From Thermorudis peleae (lineage in GTDB: Bacteria; Chloroflexota; Chloroflexia; Thermomicrobiales; Thermomicrobiaceae): 64,000 nt of DNA. The stretch spans positions 1,116,001-1,180,000 of the forward strand of contig NZ_JQMP01000003.1 in assembly GCF_000744775.1 (NCBI RefSeq), read 5' to 3'. This document shows positions 25,766 to 35,807 of this stretch, piece by piece (position 1 is the first letter of the stretch; the number at the start of each line of letters is the position of its first letter). The notes under the pieces were generated by a model. That model saw nothing but the letters and a program-made list of their open reading frames with translations, did no database searches and was not told the origin of the DNA. A program made the translations under genes and the position numbers.

Positions 25766-26974
25766 ATGGGAGCAGAGACCAGGGCAGCCTTAACGGGGAT
25801 TCGTGTGCTTGAACTCGGCACATTTATTGCTGGGCCATTTGCCACCCACATCTTGGCTGACCTTGGGGCGGATGTCATTAAAGTTGAGCCTCCAGGCAAA
25901 GGAGACCCTCTGCGTGAATGGGGATTTGGGGCGCGCGATGGGGATTCGTTGTGGTTTGCCGTTCAATCACGCAATAAGCGTTCCATTGTGATTGATTTGA
26001 AACGCCCTGAAGGTCAAGCTCTAATTCATAAATTGCTCCCGGCCTGTGATATCGTTGTCGAAAACTTTCAACCTGGTACGCTCGAGCGATGGAATCTAGG
26101 TTGGGAAGTGTTACAGCAGATCAATCCCCGTGTGATCCTCGTGCGTATTTCCGGCTTTGGCCAGACGGGTCCTTATCGGTTGCGACCGGGCTTCGGTAAC
26201 ATTGCCGAATCGATGGGGGGTATTCGCTATATTACTGGCTATCCTGATCGTCCACCGGTCCGCGTCGGGATGAGTTTAGCTGACCATGTCGCTGCACTCT
26301 ATGCCGTCATTGGTGCTCTGGCAGCGCTTCAAGCACGCACGGTGACTGGGCGTGGTCAAGTGGTGGACGTTGCCTTAACAGAGAGTATGTTTAGCTTCCT
26401 TCAGGATGCTCTGCCACAGTATGTCGCCCATGGGCGTGTGCAAGAGCGTGTTGGGAATGCCTTGCAGTTTGCTGCGCCGTCAAATATCTATCAGACACGT
26501 GATGGGCACTGGGTTGCCATTAGTGGCAATGCCGACAGTATTTTCCGCCGGCTGATGCATGCCATTGGCCGCGATGATCTTGCGGTGGATCCTGAGTTGC
26601 AATCAAATCCGGGACGAGTCGCTCGTGAGGCGGAACTCGATGAGGCAATTGAAACTTGGACGCGACAGCATACACTTGAGGAAGTTTCTGCAACGCTGGA
26701 AGCAGCCGAAGTGCCCTATGGCCCAGTCTATAGCATCCGCGAGATCGTCAATGATCCACAATATCAAGCTCGGGAGATGATTGTGATGGTCCCGCATCCG
26801 CGCTTCGGGCAGGTTGCTATGCCCGGCATCGTGCCGCGACTTTCCGAAACGCCGGGTTCAATTCGGTGGCCTGGACCGGCTCTTGGGCAAGATACGGATG
26901 CTGTCTTACGCGAACTTGCTGGGCTTGATGAGGAAGCACTGGCACAACTTCGGGATGCTGGGGTGATACAGTGA
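25766..26974 (+). CDS. CoA-transferase, CaiB/BaiF (family III)
   Basis: Family III enzymes move CoA between acyl groups through an aspartyl-anhydride intermediate. The 402-residue product opens GIRVLELGTFIAGPFATHILADLGADVIKVEPPGKGD-like, with SRNKRSIVIDLKRPEGQ, NFQPGTLERWNLG and the likely catalytic D173 in GMSLADHVAALYA. The substrate cannot be assigned. It overlaps the ABC ATPase gene by four bases and heads a run that ends in an HMG-CoA lyase-family gene, suggesting activation of an imported carboxylate. Confidence 0.92.
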   Translation: MGAETRAALTGIRVLELGTFIAGPFATHILADLGADVIKVEPPGKGDPLREWGFGARDGDSLWFAVQSRNKRSIVIDLKRPEGQALIHKLLPACDIVVENFQPGTLERWNLGWEVLQQINPRVILVRISGFGQTGPYRLRPGFGNIAESMGGIRYITGYPDRPPVRVGMSLADHVAALYAVIGALAALQARTVTGRGQVVDVALTESMFSFLQDALPQYVAHGRVQERVGNALQFAAPSNIYQTRDGHWVAISGNADSIFRRLMHAIGRDDLAVDPELQSNPGRVAREAELDEAIETWTRQHTLEEVSATLEAAEVPYGPVYSIREIVNDPQYQAREMIVMVPHPRFGQVAMPGIVPRLSETPGSIRWPGPALGQDTDAVLRELAGLDEEALAQLRDAGVIQ

Positions 26975-27798
26975 AGCACTATGGTAACGAAACGGCGGCA
27001 CCTCCGGCGATTGAGCTTGAAGAGGTAACGCGCTGGTTTGCGACGCCACGCGGACGGTATGTGGCAGTGGCGGATATTACATTTACTGTTCCGCGTGGAC
27101 AATTTGTCGCCTTGGTGGGACCGAGTGGTTGTGGGAAGTCAACGATTCTTTCGATGGTCGCTGGGCTCATCAGTCCGAGTCGAGGCGTCGTGCGTATTGA
27201 TGGGCAACCACTGGTTGGGATCAACCATCGAGCTGCCTTCATGTTTCAACAGGATGCGCTCCTGCCCTGGAAAACAGTACTTGATAACGTTGCCTTTGGT
27301 CCAATGCTTCGTGGTGTACCAAAACGTGAAGCGAGGGACATGGCCCGGACCTGGCTTGCGCGCGTTGGCCTGCGCGGCTTCGAAGATCGCTATCCCCATC
27401 AACTCTCGGGTGGCATGCGGAAGCGCGTTTCGATTGCGCAAGACCTGGTGAATGATCCCCAGATTCTGCTGATGGACGAACCGTTCAATGGGCTCGATGC
27501 ACAGACACGGACAATGATTGAAAACGAAGTCCTGCAGCTCTGGTCTGGATCGAATAAAACTGTCCTCTTTGTTACGCATGATCTTGAAGAAGCAATCGCG
27601 ATGTCCGATCGTGTCATTCTCCTAACAGCGGGACCGGCTCGTATTAAAGGTGATTATCCAGTCATGCTTGAACGACCGCGAAATGTTCAGGAAGTGCGCT
27701 TTCAGCCCGCGTTTGCCGCGTTATATGAGAAGATCTGGGACGACTTGAAGAGTGAGGTTCTTACGAGCTATCTGCGGCAACAGGCAGTGAGTGGCTAG
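26971..27798 (+). CDS. ABC transporter ATP-binding protein (SsuB/TauB/NrtD type)
   Basis: The 275-residue product has Walker A GPSGCGKST, a Q-loop in FMFQQDALLPW, the signature LSGGM and Walker B ILLMDEPFNGLD followed by the switch His in THDLEEAIAMSDR. The sequence type is that of nitrate/sulfonate/taurine-class importers, which also include carriers for thiamine precursors and organic acids. It begins with GTG overlapping the CoA-transferase stop, so the transporter is translationally tied to the enzyme. Confidence 0.93.
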   Translation: MKHYGNETAAPPAIELEEVTRWFATPRGRYVAVADITFTVPRGQFVALVGPSGCGKSTILSMVAGLISPSRGVVRIDGQPLVGINHRAAFMFQQDALLPWKTVLDNVAFGPMLRGVPKREARDMARTWLARVGLRGFEDRYPHQLSGGMRKRVSIAQDLVNDPQILLMDEPFNGLDAQTRTMIENEVLQLWSGSNKTVLFVTHDLEEAIAMSDRVILLTAGPARIKGDYPVMLERPRNVQEVRFQPAFAALYEKIWDDLKSEVLTSYLRQQAVSG

Positions 27799-27816
27799 GA
27801 ATAGAGGGACGCAGAG

Positions 27817-28680
27817 ATGGAATCGCGTGCGGTAAGCGTGGAGACACCGTCTCCGGAAGCGCTCCACGAATTTGGACAACTGGAACGGCAAGAGCGTCGA
27901 CGCCGTCTTCTTGTCCACATTCTCCAAGTGCTTGTGCTCGTTGGAATTCTCGCTGCCTGGCAGTTGGTGACAACTATAGGCTGGGTTAGCCCATTCTTCG
28001 TCAGCCAGCCGACAGCAATCTTCCATCGTCTTGTCACCTGGTTTGGGACAGGATTTATCTATCGACATATTGAGGCGACGATCTATGAGACCATTGTTTC
28101 GTTTATCGTTGGTGTTCTGTTCGGGATCCTCTTTGGATTTTTGCTTGCTCGGAGCGCGTTGCTGGCTGACGTCCTGCAACCGTACGTCGCCATGCTCAAC
28201 GCGTTGCCACGTGTCGTCCTTGCGCCGATTTTTGTTCTCTGGTTTGGGCTTGGCATGCTCTCGAAGATTGCGCTTGGGGTCTCGCTTGTGTTCTTTATTG
28301 TCTTCTACAACACGTTTCAAGGTGTGCGTGAAGCTGACCCACGAGTCATCGACAAGGCGCGCATGCTTGGGGCAACTGAGTGGCAAGTTATTCGCCATGT
28401 CCAATTGCCGTCGGCAATCACCTGGATCCTTTCAAGCCTTCATACGAGCTTTGGGTTCGCTCTTGCTGGTGTCGTGGTCGGTGAATATCTCGGGGCAACG
28501 CATGGGATTGGTTATCTCGTTGCTCTCAACGAAGGGAATTTTGATAGTACCGGCGTCTTTGCTGGCATGACGGTTCTTGCGATCTTGGTCTTGGTGATCG
28601 AGCTTGGTATTGGTCCCCTTGAGCGATGGTTGCTCCGCTGGCAGCCACAGCAGGAAGCTAGTCGCGTGCGAGAAGGTTAA
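27817..28680 (+). CDS. ABC transporter permease (SsuC/TauC type)
   Basis: The 287-residue product has about six membrane segments (first near residues 32-52) and the EAA loop EADPRVIDKARMLGATEWQVI, which docks on the ATPase. FVLWFGLGMLSKIALGVSLVFFIVFYNT is typical of the nitrate/sulfonate family permeases. It lies 18 bases after the ATPase gene. With the ATPase and the binding lipoprotein it completes a three-component importer. Confidence 0.93.
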   Translation: MESRAVSVETPSPEALHEFGQLERQERRRRLLVHILQVLVLVGILAAWQLVTTIGWVSPFFVSQPTAIFHRLVTWFGTGFIYRHIEATIYETIVSFIVGVLFGILFGFLLARSALLADVLQPYVAMLNALPRVVLAPIFVLWFGLGMLSKIALGVSLVFFIVFYNTFQGVREADPRVIDKARMLGATEWQVIRHVQLPSAITWILSSLHTSFGFALAGVVVGEYLGATHGIGYLVALNEGNFDSTGVFAGMTVLAILVLVIELGIGPLERWLLRWQPQQEASRVREG

Positions 28681-28717
28681 GCAACGTGCACAGCGTAAGG
28701 AGGTGAGGAGGAGTAGG

Positions 28718-28777
28718 ATGCGGGTTACCCATCGGTGGTGTGGGAGTAGGGCTGTACAGGAGGAGAGTGAGAAGTGA
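28718..28777 (+). CDS. 19-codon leader ORF before the binding-protein gene (candidate)
   Basis: An ATG at 28718 with an outstanding AAGGAGGTGAGGAGG upstream opens a 19-codon frame (MRVTHRWCGSRAVQEESEK) whose TGA shares bases with the ATG of the substrate-binding protein gene (TGATG). The arrangement suggests translational coupling or stalling control rather than a functional peptide. No relatives are recognised. Confidence 0.3.
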   Translation: MRVTHRWCGSRAVQEESEK

Positions 28778-30024
28778 TGCAGCATCAAGGGATGATGCCA
28801 TCATTGACTCGGTGCACTCGGCGAGCAGTGCTTCGCTGGGCGCTTGGCGCCGGACTGTCATCGCCAGTCGTTGCCGGTTTGCTCGCTGCATGTGGTAGTA
28901 ACGCTACGCCAACTGCGAGCACAAGTAGCGGAGGTGCGAGTACCGCGGCGAGCCTAACCCCGACTACCAGTCGGCCAACGTCCGTGGTCACCGTGACGAC
29001 GAATACAGCAACAGCACCTGCTGCTTCAGCGACAGCTGTGGGGACGGCGTCTCCAGTTGCCCTGAATTTGCCCAAAGTGACACCCGAGAAGACGAAGATT
29101 ACCTTCGCAGTTGGTGGTCAAGAGCAGTTCATTTACCTTCCACTGACGTTGGCCAAGCAACTTGGCTACTTCCAGGAACAAGGAATAGATGTCACGATCG
29201 CCAATTTTTCCGGTGGCTCGAAGGCTGCTGAGGCATTAGTTGGCGGTAGCGCTGACTTTGTGATGGGATTCTACGACCACACGATACAGGTGCAACCGAA
29301 AGGCCAATACCTTCAGTCAGTCTGTCTCATTGACCAGTATCCTGGTATCGTCTTGCTGGTCAGTCAGAAAGCTGCCGATAAAATCAAGACGCTTGATGAT
29401 CTCAAAGGCAAGACGGTCGGGGTAACGGCTCCTGGCTCTTCCACACAATTTTTCCTGAACTTTATCCTCTCACAACATAATATTCCCCAAGATGCTGTGA
29501 GTGTGGTTGCTATTGGTACGGGAAGCACGGCATACGCCGCTATTGCCGAGGGCAAGGTCGATGCTGGGATGACCGTTGATCCTGCTGCAACGCAACTGGT
29601 ACAAGACGGCAAAGCTACGGTTCTCTGGGATACGCGGTCACAGAAGGACACCGTCGCAGCATTCGGCGGGCCATATCCAGCAGGGTGTTTCTATAGCAAG
29701 GAAGATTTTATCAAGAATAATCCACAGACTGTTCAGGCATTGGTTAATGCAGGCTTAAAGACGCTGGCCTGGATTCAATCGCATAGTGCGGCTGAAATTG
29801 CTGACAAGATGCCGCCCGATTTCTACGCTAACAACAAGCAACTATATGTCTCATCATTGCAAAATTCCCTGACACTCTTCTCTCCCAATGGGCTGATGCC
29901 GGCAGATGGCCCCGCGACGGTGCGGAAAGTGCTGGCTCTTTCTGACGCGTCGGTCAAAAATGCGCAGATCGATCTGAATCGTACCTATACGAACCAGTTT
30001 GTTCAGGCCGCATTAGGCAAATAG
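28777..30024 (+). CDS. ABC transporter substrate-binding lipoprotein (SsuA/NMT1-like)
   Basis: The product starts with an arginine pair (TRRAVLRWAL) and a hydrophobic segment ending in the lipobox LLAAC, giving lipidated C39, so it may be exported by Tat or Sec and anchored outside. A Thr/Ser/Ala-rich linker of about 55 residues follows, then a periplasmic-binding fold of the SsuA/THI5/NMT1 type: FIYLPLTLAKQLGYFQEQGIDV, GGSADFVMGFYDH, TVGVTAPGSSTQFF, ALVNAGLKTLAWI. Starts at GTG 28774 or ATG 28777 are both possible; the ATG is preferred. The ligand is unknown, but gene context points to an organic acid. Confidence 0.9.
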   Translation: MQHQGMMPSLTRCTRRAVLRWALGAGLSSPVVAGLLAACGSNATPTASTSSGGASTAASLTPTTSRPTSVVTVTTNTATAPAASATAVGTASPVALNLPKVTPEKTKITFAVGGQEQFIYLPLTLAKQLGYFQEQGIDVTIANFSGGSKAAEALVGGSADFVMGFYDHTIQVQPKGQYLQSVCLIDQYPGIVLLVSQKAADKIKTLDDLKGKTVGVTAPGSSTQFFLNFILSQHNIPQDAVSVVAIGTGSTAYAAIAEGKVDAGMTVDPAATQLVQDGKATVLWDTRSQKDTVAAFGGPYPAGCFYSKEDFIKNNPQTVQALVNAGLKTLAWIQSHSAAEIADKMPPDFYANNKQLYVSSLQNSLTLFSPNGLMPADGPATVRKVLALSDASVKNAQIDLNRTYTNQFVQAALGK

Positions 30025-30047
30025 CACTGGAATTGAGGCACGAAGAC

Positions 30048-30947
30048 ATGTCGCTGCCAGCGCGCGTACGCATCACCGAAGTTGGGCCGCGCGATGGACT
30101 ACAAAATGAAGCGGTAATACTTTCGACTGAACAGAAATGCCAGTTGATCAAGCTCTTGATTGAAGCTGGCATACGCGAAATTGAGGTCGCTGCCTTTGTC
30201 CATCCGCGTTGGATGCCGACAATGGCCGATGCTGAGGCTGTGCTTGCCGCGGTACCCCGAGGTCAAGGCGTGCGCTACAGCGTCCTCATTCCAAATCTTA
30301 AAGGCTATCAGCGAGCGGCTCCGTTACGACCGGATGAAATTGTCGTGGTGTGCTCGGCAAGTGAGCGACATAATCAGGCAAACCTGAACCGGTCGACAAC
30401 TGAGTCGCTCGCTGAATTCCAGCAGGTAGTGGCTCTGGCTCGGCACGATCACCTTCCCGTGAGAGGTGCAATTGCAACGGCCTTCTGGTGTCCGTACGAA
30501 GGGCGCATCAGTGTCAGCAGAGTTTGCGATGTCGCCGAGGCCTATGCTGCAATGGGCGTTCAAGAAATTGCTTTGGCTGATACCCTTGGTGCTGCCGATC
30601 CACGCCATGTACGGGAACTTGTGCTGGCAGTCCGTGAGAGCACGGGCTTGCCAGTAAGCCTCCATCTGCATAACACCGCTGGACTGGCCCTTGCCTGTCT
30701 TGTTGCTGCACTCGACATCGGCGTCGAGCGCTTCGACGCATCGATCGGTGGGCTTGGGGGGTGTCCCTACTGCCCTGGAGCCGCTGGCAATGTAGCCACG
30801 GAAGATGTGGTGTTTTTGCTGGAGCGACTCGGCATTCAGACAGGAATTGACCAAGCGAAGTTGCTTGACGCCGCTCGCTACGTGCAGATGCTTGTTGGTC
30901 ATCCGCTGCACAGTTATCGCCTCGTCACTGCTGGGACGATTGTGTAG
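30048..30947 (+). CDS. Hydroxymethylglutaryl-CoA lyase family enzyme
   Basis: The 299-residue product is a DRE-TIM lyase: ITEVGPRDGLQNE with the metal-binding Asp near residue 16, HLHNTAGLALA with two metal-ligand histidines, and the mobile loop GGLGGCPYCPGAAGNVATED containing the active-site cysteine. HMG-CoA lyase cleaves 3-hydroxy-3-methylglutaryl-CoA to acetyl-CoA and acetoacetate in leucine breakdown; related enzymes accept other 3-hydroxy-acyl-CoAs. The ATG at 30048 has GAGG upstream; a TTG at 30033 would add five residues. It follows the binding protein by 23 bases in the same operon. Confidence 0.9.
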   Translation: MSLPARVRITEVGPRDGLQNEAVILSTEQKCQLIKLLIEAGIREIEVAAFVHPRWMPTMADAEAVLAAVPRGQGVRYSVLIPNLKGYQRAAPLRPDEIVVVCSASERHNQANLNRSTTESLAEFQQVVALARHDHLPVRGAIATAFWCPYEGRISVSRVCDVAEAYAAMGVQEIALADTLGAADPRHVRELVLAVRESTGLPVSLHLHNTAGLALACLVAALDIGVERFDASIGGLGGCPYCPGAAGNVATEDVVFLLERLGIQTGIDQAKLLDAARYVQMLVGHPLHSYRLVTAGTIV

Positions 30948-30999
30948 ATTGCATGTATCCTTACAAGGGAATTTTCTGTGAATGGAAAGGCGGTAGACC

Positions 31000-32175
31000 A
31001 TGAGTCTGGCGCGTGCGCTCGACACGGTGCTACAACAGGCAGTCGAGCGAGGAGATGTGCCAGGAGTCGTTGCGTTTGTTGCCAATGATCAGGGGCTTCT
31101 CTATGAAGGAGCCTTTGGTGTTCGCACAGTTGGTCAACCTGATCCGATGTCACGTGACGCAGTCTTTTGGATTGCGTCAATGACGAAGCCCATTACCACC
31201 GTTGCCGCATTACAATTGGTTGAGCAGGGAAAACTGAGCCTCGATGCACCTGTTGGCTTAATCGTGCCTGAATTAGCTGAGCCGCAAGTTCTCGAGGGGT
31301 TCGATGAGTCAGGGAAGCCGAAGTTGCGCTCAGCGAGTCGCCCACTCACACTCCGACATCTGCTCACGCACACGTCCGGATTTTCCTATGATTTTTTGAG
31401 TTCAGACTACCAGCGATATATGGCAATCACCGGCTTGCCTTCGATTGGCACCTGTCAACGCGCGGCTCTCGCATTGCCGCTGCTCTTTGAGCCTGGTGAG
31501 CGTTGGGAATATGGCATTAGCATCGACTGGGTTGGCCAGATTGTCGAACGGGTTACTGGTGAATCGCTTGAGGAGTACTTCGGTAAGCACATTTTTGACC
31601 CACTCGGCATGAGGGATACACGATTCCTTTTGCGTCCAGATATGCAAGCACGCCGTGCTGGTATGCATCTCCGACAGCCAGATCAACGCCTTGTGCCAAT
31701 TCCATTTGAGGTACCCCAGCAACCAGAATTCTTTATGGGTGGCGGAGGGCTCTATTCAACTGGACCTGATTACATCACCTTCCTTCGGATGATCTTGCGT
31801 GGCGGTGAACTGGATGGCGCGCGCATTTTGCAGCCGGAAACGGTTGTTGCCATGGGCACCAATCAGATTGGGGCACTAGCGGTTGGTGCGCTCGTGAGTG
31901 CTGACCCTACACAGGCACGGGATCTTGAATATTTCCCTGGTTTGCGCAAGAAATGGGGCTTTGGCTTCATGATCCTTGAAGAGGATGCGCCAACTGGGCG
32001 GAGCGCTGGAAGCTTGGCGTGGGGAGGGCTGGCAAACACAACGTTCTGGATTGATCCTGCCAAGCGCGTTGCAGCTGTGATCTTGCTTCAGGTTCTGCCT
32101 TCAGGTGATCCGTTAGCGCTCCAACTCTTCGAAGCATTCGAGCGAGCGCTCTATACCCAGCTTGCTACGCGCTAG
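31000..32175 (+). CDS. Serine hydrolase, beta-lactamase class C/EstB-like
   Basis: The 391-residue product has the S60-M-T-K63 tetrad of penicillin-binding-type hydrolases, the motif HLLTHTSGF, and a YGIS segment in place of the Tyr-x-Asn motif, a substitution common in esterases of this fold. The third motif is replaced by AWGGLAN. No signal peptide is present, so it acts in the cytosol and is more likely an esterase than a beta-lactamase. It follows the lyase by 52 bases and ends in a terminator, so it may belong to the same operon. Confidence 0.87.
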   Translation: MSLARALDTVLQQAVERGDVPGVVAFVANDQGLLYEGAFGVRTVGQPDPMSRDAVFWIASMTKPITTVAALQLVEQGKLSLDAPVGLIVPELAEPQVLEGFDESGKPKLRSASRPLTLRHLLTHTSGFSYDFLSSDYQRYMAITGLPSIGTCQRAALALPLLFEPGERWEYGISIDWVGQIVERVTGESLEEYFGKHIFDPLGMRDTRFLLRPDMQARRAGMHLRQPDQRLVPIPFEVPQQPEFFMGGGGLYSTGPDYITFLRMILRGGELDGARILQPETVVAMGTNQIGALAVGALVSADPTQARDLEYFPGLRKKWGFGFMILEEDAPTGRSAGSLAWGGLANTTFWIDPAKRVAAVILLQVLPSGDPLALQLFEAFERALYTQLATR

Positions 32176-32191
32176 GCGTGAAGATCAACAT

Positions 32192-32240
32192 AAAGCCCTC
32201 GGGGACACGCTACGCTCAAGGCCGTCCCTGAGGGCTTTTG
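32192..32240. terminator. Bidirectional rho-independent terminator
   Basis: A 15-bp stem with one G-T mismatch (AAAGCCCTCGGGGAC at 32192-32206, GTCCCTGAGGGCTTT at 32224-32238) carries A residues on the left and T residues on the right, so it can end transcripts from both the serine hydrolase operon (+) and the pentose transporter (-). Confidence 0.85.
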
Positions 32241-32248
32241 TCTATGGC

Positions 32249-34324
32249 CTATGCCCGTCCGGCAGCTTCCTGTGTTCGCCGCGTTATGACATCGATGGAG
32301 ACTGCAAGGAGAAGCACAGCACCAGTAACCATGAACTTAATTGCCGACGGTAATGCAAGGAGATCCATCCCATTCGCGATGGAACCAATAACCAGTGCAC
32401 CAAGTAAGGCTGACCAGGCACTGCCGCGGCCGCCGAAGAGGCTCGTTCCGCCGATGACAGCGGCAGCGATGGCGTCGAGGAGGAGGTCACCGGAGCCAGA
32501 GGATTGGTTAACAGCCAGAAGGCGAGAGGCTGCAAGGATGCCGCCGGCTGCAGCTAGGAGTGAACTGAGCATGAAAACAATGATGCGAACGCGTGTGACA
32601 TTGATCCCCGCGCGTCGAGCGGCTTCGGCATCACCACCGACGGCGTAGATGTAGCGACCAAAACGTGTGCGGCGGGTCAAGAGATCAAAGCCAACAACAA
32701 CGAGCAGAAAGATCAGCACGCCAAGTGGGACACCGGCAATGCGCACCTGCGTGGCGCTGCGGTTCACGCTCATGATTGCCACGGCGCCAAGCGTTGCGAC
32801 AGTGATTGCCACAGCCCGCATGAGCATACCGGTCGTTGAAGCAACGGGAAGGCCAGCCTTCATCCGTGATTGTCGGCTGCGAATCATGCTTCCAATCGAG
32901 AACACAACAAAAAGTGCGCCAAGAACCCAACCGAGCCAAACTGGGAGCAGTGTGTTCGCTAGACCGACGATAAAGCGATCGTTCAAGTTAATGGTTCCCG
33001 TCGGGCCGAGAACTTGAAGCAATGCTCCTTGCCAGCCCAAGAGTCCAGCAAGGGTGACGATAAACGATGGAACTCCAACTTTGGTTGTCCAGGTGCCTTG
33101 AATGAGTCCAATGACAGCACCTGCTGCTAGTCCTGCGAGGACGGCAAGTGGTCCAGCAAGATGATGGCGGGTTGAGAGAACGGCCATAATGCCTGCTGTT
33201 AGCCCGCTGACCGCGCCGACTGAGAGGTCAATCTCACCCAAGAGCAGGATAAGCACAACGCCGACAGCGATTGTACCGAGGGCTGCAATCTGGGCAAGTA
33301 AGTTCGTCAGGTTTAACGGTGTGAGGAAGTTGTGGTTCAGCGCTTGGAAGATCAGCGCAATGATCACCAGTCCAATCAGGACCGGCAATGTGCCAACGCG
33401 ACTCGCAAGAGCCGAGCGAATGACCCCGACTAACCCTCCACGCCGACTTACCGGTGCAGCGACTGTCGTCTCAAGCGAAATATCTTGGTGTCCATCAATC
33501 TCAGCAGGTTCAGCGGTGTCGGGAACCTCAAGCGTGGCCCCAGTAATTGCGCCTACGACCTGGTCGGGGGTTGCCTTGCGTGCATCATAGGTGGCAACCC
33601 GTCGGCCTAGACGCATGACGACGATGCGGTCAGCCACTTCAAAGACATCAGGGAGGTTATGGCTAATGAGAACGACGCCAAGTCCACGTTCGCGGAGCCG
33701 CTTGATCAGGTTAAGAACGTTCCGTGTTTGCGCAACCCCAAGGGCAGCGGTTGGCTCATCAAGGATGACAACCTTTGAGTTCCACATGACGGCTCGCGCA
33801 ATGGCGATCGATTGCCGTTGTCCACCTGACAGTGTTGCAACAGGGCGGCGAACCGATGGAAGGACAACGGACAGGTTCTGCAATACCTCGATGGCTTGTC
33901 GTTCCATCTGGATTTCGTTGAGGGGCTGAATTCCCGGAGGCGCGACGTGATCGAGTTGGGTAGTCGCTTCGCGGCCGAGAAAGAGATTCGCGACGACATC
34001 AAGATTGTTGCAGAGAGCGAGATCTTGATAGACCGTTTCAATGCCCAGGCGCGCTGCATCGGCTGGTGAGCTAACCGTCACTTGCTGACCGTTAAACCAA
34101 TACTCGCCGCTATCTGGCTGGTAGACTCCTGAAATGATCTTGGCAAGGGTAGATTTTCCTGCGCCGTTATCGCCAACAAGTGCAACAACTTCGCCGGGAT
34201 AAACTTCAAAGGAGACATCTTTCAGGGCTTGGACAGCACCGAACCGTTTGCTGATGTGGCGCAGCATGAGAATTGGCTGACGCTCGTGTGCCGTATTAGT
34301 AGCGGGCTGCGTCTGCACTTCCAT
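32249..34324 (-). CDS. Fused ABC ATPase-permease of a pentose-type (XylG-XylH-like) importer
   Basis: One 691-residue polypeptide combines a single nucleotide-binding domain (residues about 20-260: Walker A GDNGAGKST, signature LSGGQRQS, Walker B VVILDEPTAALG) with a XylH/RbsC-type permease (about 310-690; LLLGEIDLSVGAVSGLTAG and GRYIYAVGGDAEAARRAGI are the diagnostic segments). Usual sugar importers of this class have a two-domain ATPase and a separate permease. Here a half transporter would dimerise. The binding-protein gene lies 132 bases upstream, so pentose or related sugar uptake is likely; the sugar is not decidable. Confidence 0.9.
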   Translation of the reverse strand: MEVQTQPATNTAHERQPILMLRHISKRFGAVQALKDVSFEVYPGEVVALVGDNGAGKSTLAKIISGVYQPDSGEYWFNGQQVTVSSPADAARLGIETVYQDLALCNNLDVVANLFLGREATTQLDHVAPPGIQPLNEIQMERQAIEVLQNLSVVLPSVRRPVATLSGGQRQSIAIARAVMWNSKVVILDEPTAALGVAQTRNVLNLIKRLRERGLGVVLISHNLPDVFEVADRIVVMRLGRRVATYDARKATPDQVVGAITGATLEVPDTAEPAEIDGHQDISLETTVAAPVSRRGGLVGVIRSALASRVGTLPVLIGLVIIALIFQALNHNFLTPLNLTNLLAQIAALGTIAVGVVLILLLGEIDLSVGAVSGLTAGIMAVLSTRHHLAGPLAVLAGLAAGAVIGLIQGTWTTKVGVPSFIVTLAGLLGWQGALLQVLGPTGTINLNDRFIVGLANTLLPVWLGWVLGALFVVFSIGSMIRSRQSRMKAGLPVASTTGMLMRAVAITVATLGAVAIMSVNRSATQVRIAGVPLGVLIFLLVVVGFDLLTRRTRFGRYIYAVGGDAEAARRAGINVTRVRIIVFMLSSLLAAAGGILAASRLLAVNQSSGSGDLLLDAIAAAVIGGTSLFGGRGSAWSALLGALVIGSIANGMDLLALPSAIKFMVTGAVLLLAVSIDVITRRTQEAAGRA

Positions 34325-34395
34325 TGCTGTACCCTTCCCAGGTGCCGAAACAAAACACTTATTTGAAGGTGAAACAGGCTCACGATACAGTGAAG

Positions 34396-34423
34396 CGTCA
34401 GGAGGGGTATACCCCTCCTGACG
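34396..34423. other. Perfect 28-base palindrome between binding protein and transporter genes
   Basis: The half CGTCAGGAGGGGTA is followed directly by its exact reverse complement. In the transcript it folds into a hairpin of about 12 bp with a tiny loop, located 33 bases after the binding-protein stop. It lacks a following T-run, so it is better explained as an mRNA-stabilising or attenuating hairpin that raises the binding protein over the transporter; a protein-binding site is the alternative. Confidence 0.7.
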
Positions 34424-34456
34424 TGTTCTTCATGACAGGCTGACCGTTTTCTAGGC

Positions 34457-35737
34457 TTACTGCAGCCCTGCGTTCTTGCATGCCGTCGCGTAATCAGCAG
34501 TGCAGATCTGCTGCACTGTCCAGAAGCCATCCTTCACGACGGTGTCTTTAATATTGTCCTTCGTCACAACAATTGGTGTCAGCAACACTGAGGGCACATT
34601 AATCTTGCCATTTGGGGTTGTCTTGCCGGCTGTAACACTGCTCGGCACGGGCGTGTTGGTGAGCAGCGAATATGCGAGTTCAGCAGCAATTTCCGCTTCA
34701 GGCTTCAATGGCTTGTAGACAGTCATGTACTGCTCACCAGCGACGATCCGCTGAATTGCCGCAAGCTCAGCATCTTGCCCTGTCACTGGAGGCAGCGGAT
34801 TCAGCCCTGCCGCCTTCATCGCAGCAATCGCACCACCGGCTGTACCGTCATTTGCCGCATAGACACCGTCAACTTTGTTGCCCAACGCTGTCAGTGCTTG
34901 CTGCATCTCGTTTTGTGCCTGGTCCGGACTCCAGTCCGGCGTATCGTACTCTTTGGCGATCACCAACTTGCCAGCCTGCACCAACGGATCGAAGACGCTA
35001 TGGGCGCCGGCTTTGAATTGACCAGCATTGGGGTCTGTTGGCGCGCCGTTGATCATCACAATCTGGGGCTTGCTTTTACCGCTTAAGGCCTGAACAAGCG
35101 CTTGGGCCTGAAGCTGACCAACACGCGTGTTGTCGAACGAGATGTAGTATGTTACGCCATCAGAATTCTGGATTAGTCGGTCGTAAGCAATAACCGGAAC
35201 GCCCTGTGCCTTTGCCTTATCGGCAATCACCGCGGCAGCCTTGCCATCAACTGGATCAAGGACAAGTACCTTGGCGCCGTTTGCAAGCGCGGCTTCAGCT
35301 TGTTGCTGCTGTGCGCTTGCGTCTTGGTTCGCATTGCTGTAGATGATCTTGCAGTTTGGACAGAGCGCCTTTAGTTTTGCTTCGAAGAGTGGGCGGTCTT
35401 TACTTTCGTACCGTGCCGTCTTTGATTCAGGTAGAAGCAGCGCAATAGTTCCGCTGGCCGAGGTCGACGGCGTGACCCAGTCGGCAATGCCAGGCGTTGC
35501 CTGGGCAGTGCTCACAGCTGTCGCGCTGGCAGTTGTCGTCGCGCTACCAGCACTCGTTGTTGCCGTTGCTGCTGCTTTCGTGGCCGTTGGGCTTGCCATG
35601 CTTGTTGCTGCGGTAGGCGAGCTTGTTGTACCTGCACTTGTTGAGGTCGTTGGAGTTGGTGTAGCGCTCCCACCACAGGCAACTGTCAGTGCAAGTAGGG
35701 CACTGACGAGAAGCAACCAAATACCTCGCTGTTTCAT
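34457..35737 (-). CDS. Sugar ABC transporter substrate-binding lipoprotein (XylF-like)
   Basis: The 426-residue product has a lipoprotein signal ending LTVAC (C21), a Thr/Ala/Ser-rich linker to about residue 95, and a pentose-binding fold: IALLLPESKTARYESKDRPLFE, IIYSNANQDASAQQQQAEAAL, VLVLDPVDGKAAA, VIAYDRLI and YYISFDNTRVGQLQA, all in XylF style. A Cys pair (LCPNCK) sits in the first subdomain. The ATG at 35737 follows GAGGAGGGTCCAC. It is the first gene of the operon with the fused transporter. Confidence 0.9.
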   Translation of the reverse strand: MKQRGIWLLLVSALLALTVACGGSATPTPTTSTSAGTTSSPTAATSMASPTATKAAATATTSAGSATTTASATAVSTAQATPGIADWVTPSTSASGTIALLLPESKTARYESKDRPLFEAKLKALCPNCKIIYSNANQDASAQQQQAEAALANGAKVLVLDPVDGKAAAVIADKAKAQGVPVIAYDRLIQNSDGVTYYISFDNTRVGQLQAQALVQALSGKSKPQIVMINGAPTDPNAGQFKAGAHSVFDPLVQAGKLVIAKEYDTPDWSPDQAQNEMQQALTALGNKVDGVYAANDGTAGGAIAAMKAAGLNPLPPVTGQDAELAAIQRIVAGEQYMTVYKPLKPEAEIAAELAYSLLTNTPVPSSVTAGKTTPNGKINVPSVLLTPIVVTKDNIKDTVVKDGFWTVQQICTADYATACKNAGLQ

Positions 35738-35807
35738 GTGGACCCTCCTCACGTCTTGTACCACCCACCACAAACAAGACAAAATTGGTGAAAACTACAA
35801 CGTCCAC

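Follow-up and report, generated by a model that had tools for sequence, protein, structure and literature searches.

A putative operon of Thermorudis peleae for import, CoA activation and cleavage of a hydroxy-dicarboxylate

Six consecutive genes of the Thermorudis peleae genome (2.93 Mb), located at positions 25766-32175 of the window, i.e. of the whole 64,000-nucleotide stretch analysed here, may form a catabolic operon for a short hydroxy-dicarboxylate, branched or plain, with an acid of the malate type, HOOC-C(OH)(R)-CH2-COOH, and primarily (R)-citramalate, as the best guess for its substrate. In our judgement the chances for and against this reading, drawn from sequence and gene context, are evenly balanced. 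The binding protein together with the ABC transporter would import the acid, a family III transferase would load it with CoA, the probable donor being succinyl-CoA or acetyl-CoA, and an HMGL-family metalloenzyme would split the 3-hydroxyacyl-CoA by retro-Claisen reaction into acetyl-CoA and a keto acid, which for (R)-citramalate would be pyruvate. The succession of import, CoA transfer and carbon-carbon cleavage was put forward in the initial annotation, and as a class of pathway it is well supported by gene neighbourhoods recurring in other genomes. The gene set, the intact catalytic residues and the recurring neighbourhoods are visible in the sequences themselves, whereas the direction of the route, the class of substrate, the products and the role of the esterase are inferred.

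Organization and boundaries of the gene cluster

Coordinates of the open reading frames, all on the + strand, together with Pfam and NCBIfam profiles confirmed the six-gene unit and the families initially ascribed to it. The unit opens with a family III (CaiB/BaiF) CoA-transferase (25766..26974; PF02515, 449 bits) and continues with an ABC transporter ATPase (26971..27798; PF00005), an ABC transporter permease (27817..28680; PF00528), a Tat-type lipoprotein solute-binding protein of the NMT1/SsuA superfamily, 3qsl subfamily (28774..30024; PF09084/PF13379), an HMGL-family (DRE-TIM) lyase (30033..30947; PF00682) and a cytosolic, AcmB-like S12/family VIII esterase (31000..32175; PF00144). For the lyase the ATG at 30048 looks better as a start than the TTG at 30033, and for the binding protein the ATG at 28777 is a possible alternative to 28774. 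Gaps between the genes are, in order, -4, 18, 93, 8 and 52 nt, the first value denoting the 4-nt overlap of the transferase and ATPase genes. Upstream, a divergent alcohol dehydrogenase gene lies 105 nt away, and downstream the segment 32176-32250, leading from the esterase to a convergent gene at 32249, folds into a long hairpin followed by a T-run (-33.5 kcal/mol, z = -4.0); this bidirectional intrinsic-terminator-like hairpin (32193..32240, assigned to neither strand) closes the operon. Divergent orientation of the upstream gene and the strong 3′ hairpin make the six genes look like a single transcription unit, the esterase gene being likely co-transcribed with the rest. Promoter scan gave no score above that of shuffled sequence. 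Beyond the hairpin, positions 32249-35782 of the - strand encode a single-NBD sugar-type ABC ATPase-permease fusion within one 691-aa ORF, adjoined by a gene for a sugar-type binding lipoprotein.

Recurrence of the transferase-lyase pair in other genomes

Related loci were gathered by alignment of the transferase, the scan of genome contigs with the binding protein as query having given no match. Among the 80 best transferase loci of named genomes 27 have an HMGL gene near the transferase; given 1-3 HMGL-type lyases per multi-megabase genome, we would expect about one such neighbour to arise by chance. The two genes also adjoin each other in five further members of the phylum (G006, G010, G023, G348 and G001, the latter being a family-level relative of the window genome), and a more distant form is present in G032. 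The grouping of these genes is thus non-random. The transporters accompanying the pair are diverse and comprise MFS permeases (L104, L106, L109, L112, L114), TctC proteins (L117, L123, L150, L172), TRAP DctP/DctM (L118), MatC (L149), GntP (L147), SSF (L105) and Liv-type permease (L190), with TTT-class transporters among them. Different transferase-lyase pairs may use different acids. No usable description of a transferase-HMGL pathway was found in the open-licence literature, judged from which the module appears to be undescribed so far.

A counterpart of the operon was revealed in Noviherbaspirillum galbum (L115), where the genes follow in the order LysR, binding protein, ATPase, permease, MFS, lyase, transferase, LeuC-like and LeuD-like, so that a set comprising five of the six window genes is found again in another phylum. 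The search for the same six-gene set, proposed in the initial annotation, succeeded for these five but not for the esterase, which stands outside the conserved module: its gene is absent from all other loci of the pair that were examined, and its closest relatives (63%, 54% and 48%) are encoded elsewhere with none of the other operon enzymes adjoining. The protein itself possesses SxxK (SMTK) and WGG motifs with no evident signal peptide, and its 439 bits with the methyl acetate hydrolase AcmB equivalog NF052559 fall below the cut-off of 550. Since its relatives lie away from the pair, a role as a conserved pathway enzyme was ruled out; that it frees the acid from an ester is speculation.

In G001, G006 and L127 an FCD regulator is followed by the pair and then by hydantoinase A/B, and in Sphaerobacter-like genomes (L038:5046-15234) the FCD regulator, transferase, lyase and hydantoinases A and B are accompanied by a second LeuCD, an order which suggests that a cyclic imide or lactam precursor feeds the pathway of the pair. 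In L115 and the Sphaerobacter-like genomes the pair has an additional LeuCD next to it; in G450 and G001 this LeuCD exists besides another copy, which in G001 is located beside 2-isopropylmalate synthase. In L143 and L147 the lyase gene is succeeded by that of a glyoxylate-reductase-like 2-hydroxyacid dehydrogenase, which fits a 2-oxo acid as the product; LeuCD or this dehydrogenase was found at few loci of the pair only. (R)-Citramalate and other 2-hydroxy-diacids are products of hydratases of the LeuCD/IPMI type. The window genome has just two genes of LeuC type, which lie next to those of isopropylmalate and homocitrate synthases, and in the absence of a third LeuCD the hydroxy acid itself would need to be imported.

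Two further arrangements were observed. In Geminicoccaceae-type loci (L166:6589-10122 and L179:6579-10140) a gene of GlcD-like FAD oxidase precedes the lyase and transferase. At another locus (L265:1963-7447) a binding protein from the subfamily of the window one is encoded divergently from an FCD regulator, a gene of the HMGL family (35%) and PrpB-like and PrpD-like genes, the last two recognized by eye; the HMGL-family enzyme of this locus might participate in a cycle of the methylcitrate type.

Active site of the lyase and the nature of the substrate

The lyase scores 363 bits with the HMG-CoA lyase subfamily PRK05692, above the curated cut-off of 246, and keeps residues R41, D42, E72, D204, H233, H235, C266 and N275 of human HMGL. 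A review (PMC6941031) ranks Arg41, Glu72, Tyr167 and Cys266 as the most critical residues of HMG-CoA lyase and assigns metal binding to Asp42, Asn275, His233 and His235, so the sole listed residue missing from the window enzyme is Tyr167, replaced by Ala146. Tyrosine at this position occurs in 0 of 33 lyases paired with the transferase versus 45 of 55 unpaired ones, the former number comprising 32 enzymes plus the window lyase, initially assigned to the unpaired group on account of its truncated locus. The tree placed the window lyase outside a 43-row clade (support 97) uniting human HMGL with the second HMGL of the T. peleae genome, which retains Tyr167 and groups with classical enzymes, although the tree leaves the deeper forks open, YngG of B. 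subtilis is also outside and the window branch is long; nor is the window lyase particularly near that of L115. Just two changes are required to explain the distribution of Tyr167 on the tree, and the contrast therefore distinguishes lineages and does not reflect numerous independent events.

These data bear on 3-hydroxy-3-methylglutarate, favoured in the initial annotation as the simplest substrate, which a SUGCT-like transferase would activate and the lyase would split into acetyl-CoA and acetoacetate. Of the solved structures, that of human SUGCT is indeed one of those nearest to the transferase, and the lyase exceeds the HMG-CoA lyase cut-off mentioned above; nevertheless, the transferase is slightly closer by score to YfdE, the tyrosine listed as critical is alanine in the window enzyme and a residue other than tyrosine in all the paired lyases, the lyase falls outside the clade of the human enzyme with the reservations given, and genes of acetoacetate utilization or the leucine pathway were not seen adjoining the operon. 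Asp173 of the transferase, aligned with the catalytic Asp of YfdE and SUGCT, is kept, and the protein is below the cut-off of every curated model that it matched, including the succinate-glutarate transferase equivalog NF052585 (306 of 750 bits); for the specificity residues of SUGCT no usable description was found in the open-licence literature. We consider 3-hydroxy-3-methylglutarate an unlikely substrate, this part of the initial proposal being weakened by the replaced Tyr167, by the position of the lyase on the tree and by neighbours at other loci that fit 2-hydroxy-diacids. Loss of Tyr167, the extra LeuCD and the 2-hydroxyacid dehydrogenase jointly point from it to 2-hydroxy-diacids of the malate or citramalate type. 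In terms of stereochemistry, as derived from a note in PMC6689899, (S)-HMG-CoA sterically matches (R)-citramalyl-CoA.

If a 2-hydroxy-diacid is indeed the substrate, many genes annotated as "hydroxymethylglutaryl-CoA lyase" beside a CoA-transferase would not serve leucine breakdown, the pair would represent a portable module for small hydroxy-diacids, and residue 167 would provide a simple test separating two types of lyase.

The importer and its relatives

Profiles matched by the ATPase are of Tau/Ssu/nitrate type, all below curated cut-offs, the permease is TauC/SsuC-like, also below cut-off, and the binding protein reaches 120 bits with the SsuA subfamily TIGR01728 at a cut-off of 163.5. 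The N-terminus of the latter combines a twin-arginine motif with a lipobox (RR...LLAAC), and it matches the Bordetella protein 3qsl (E 9e-75, 40% identity over 325 residues); the open-licence literature held no usable information on the 3qsl ligand. As a possible precedent for a carboxylate ligand we considered OphFGH, which imports phthalate by the ABC mechanism.

One may suppose that the ligand of the importer has no relation to the pathway, being a sulfonate, a thiamine precursor or another compound, and that only the transferase and lyase cooperate, acting on an internal metabolite. Consistent with this, the pair occurs with many other transporters, and members of the importer family frequently lie apart from the transferase, next to genes of TctD-like two-component systems in Oxalobacteraceae-type genomes and next to sensor/regulator genes in Chloroflexota. 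Against it, relatives of the importer adjoin the transferase, though not the lyase, at several betaproteobacterial loci (Lautropia L102, Caballeronia L113, Herminiimonas L138, as well as L184, L217 and L218, the last at a contig end) and accompany the whole pair in L115, and in the window the transferase and ATPase genes overlap. Identity to the window importer in L102, L113, L138, L184, L217 and L115 amounts to 43-46% for the binding protein, 53-57% for the ATPase and 42-51% for the permease. An unrelated ligand appears improbable to us, and the initial idea that the importer carries an organic acid and not a sulfonate is supported indirectly, via repeated pairing with the transferase; if correct, it would extend to carboxylates a transporter class commonly regarded as specific for sulfonate or nitrate. 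Of 246 genomes of the Noviherbaspirillum family, 72 possess between one and four copies of this importer family (loci L193-L221 and L222-L231), in many cases with two binding proteins and genes of a TctD-like two-component system.

Salvage in leucine or isoprenoid metabolism, in which the lyase would be another HMG-CoA lyase of the usual kind, with the transferase rescuing free HMG made in the cell, agrees with the family assignments, but it is highly improbable, as the other HMGL of the genome is the one that has Tyr167 and classical relatives and the importer would be left without a role.

Comparison with known systems

Returning to the catabolic operon for a hydroxy-dicarboxylate, we add a more tentative and rather doubtful generalization: the transferase-lyase pair would be a widespread, hitherto uncharacterised route for (R)-citramalate (and citraconate where LeuCD is added) or close 2-hydroxy-diacids, the mirror image of the (S)-citramalate Ict/Ccl route, supplemented in the window unit by an NMT1-type ABC importer of its own.

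The importer has its superfamily and subunit set in common with the sulfonate importers SsuABC/TauABC and its binding protein belongs to the 3qsl subfamily, but it differs from SsuABC/TauABC in scores below the SsuA/TauA cut-offs and in recurrent linkage to a CoA-transferase. The transferase shares the fold family and catalytic Asp with human SUGCT and E. coli YfdE, and, unlike them, stays below the cut-off of all curated models matched. With (S)-HMG-CoA lyases (HMGCL, YngG, LiuE) the window lyase has in common the fold family, metal ligands, Arg41, Glu72 and Cys266, and it is distinguished by the replaced Tyr167, by the neighbouring CoA-transferase and, with the reservations given above for the tree, by its place outside the human HMGL clade.

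Similar in layout is the Ict-Ich-Ccl system, in which an importer, a CoA-transferase and a carbon-carbon lyase are likewise combined. Ccl is a CitE-type lyase acting on (S)-citramalyl-CoA. The window unit differs in its DRE-TIM HMGL-family lyase, NMT1-type ABC importer and lack of an Ich hydratase, neither this hydratase nor a CitE-type citramalyl-CoA lyase being found among its six genes. In Pseudomonas aeruginosa (PA0878-PA0886) the importer, succinyl-CoA-dependent CoA-transferase and lyase are encoded together and yield acetyl-CoA and pyruvate (PMC9875883, PMC12290011), and the itaconate cluster allows the use of (S)-citramalate but not of (R)-citramalate or citraconate (PMC9875883). If our reading is correct, the operon described here would provide enzymes for the use of (R)-citramalate, which is beyond the reach of the known itaconate cluster.
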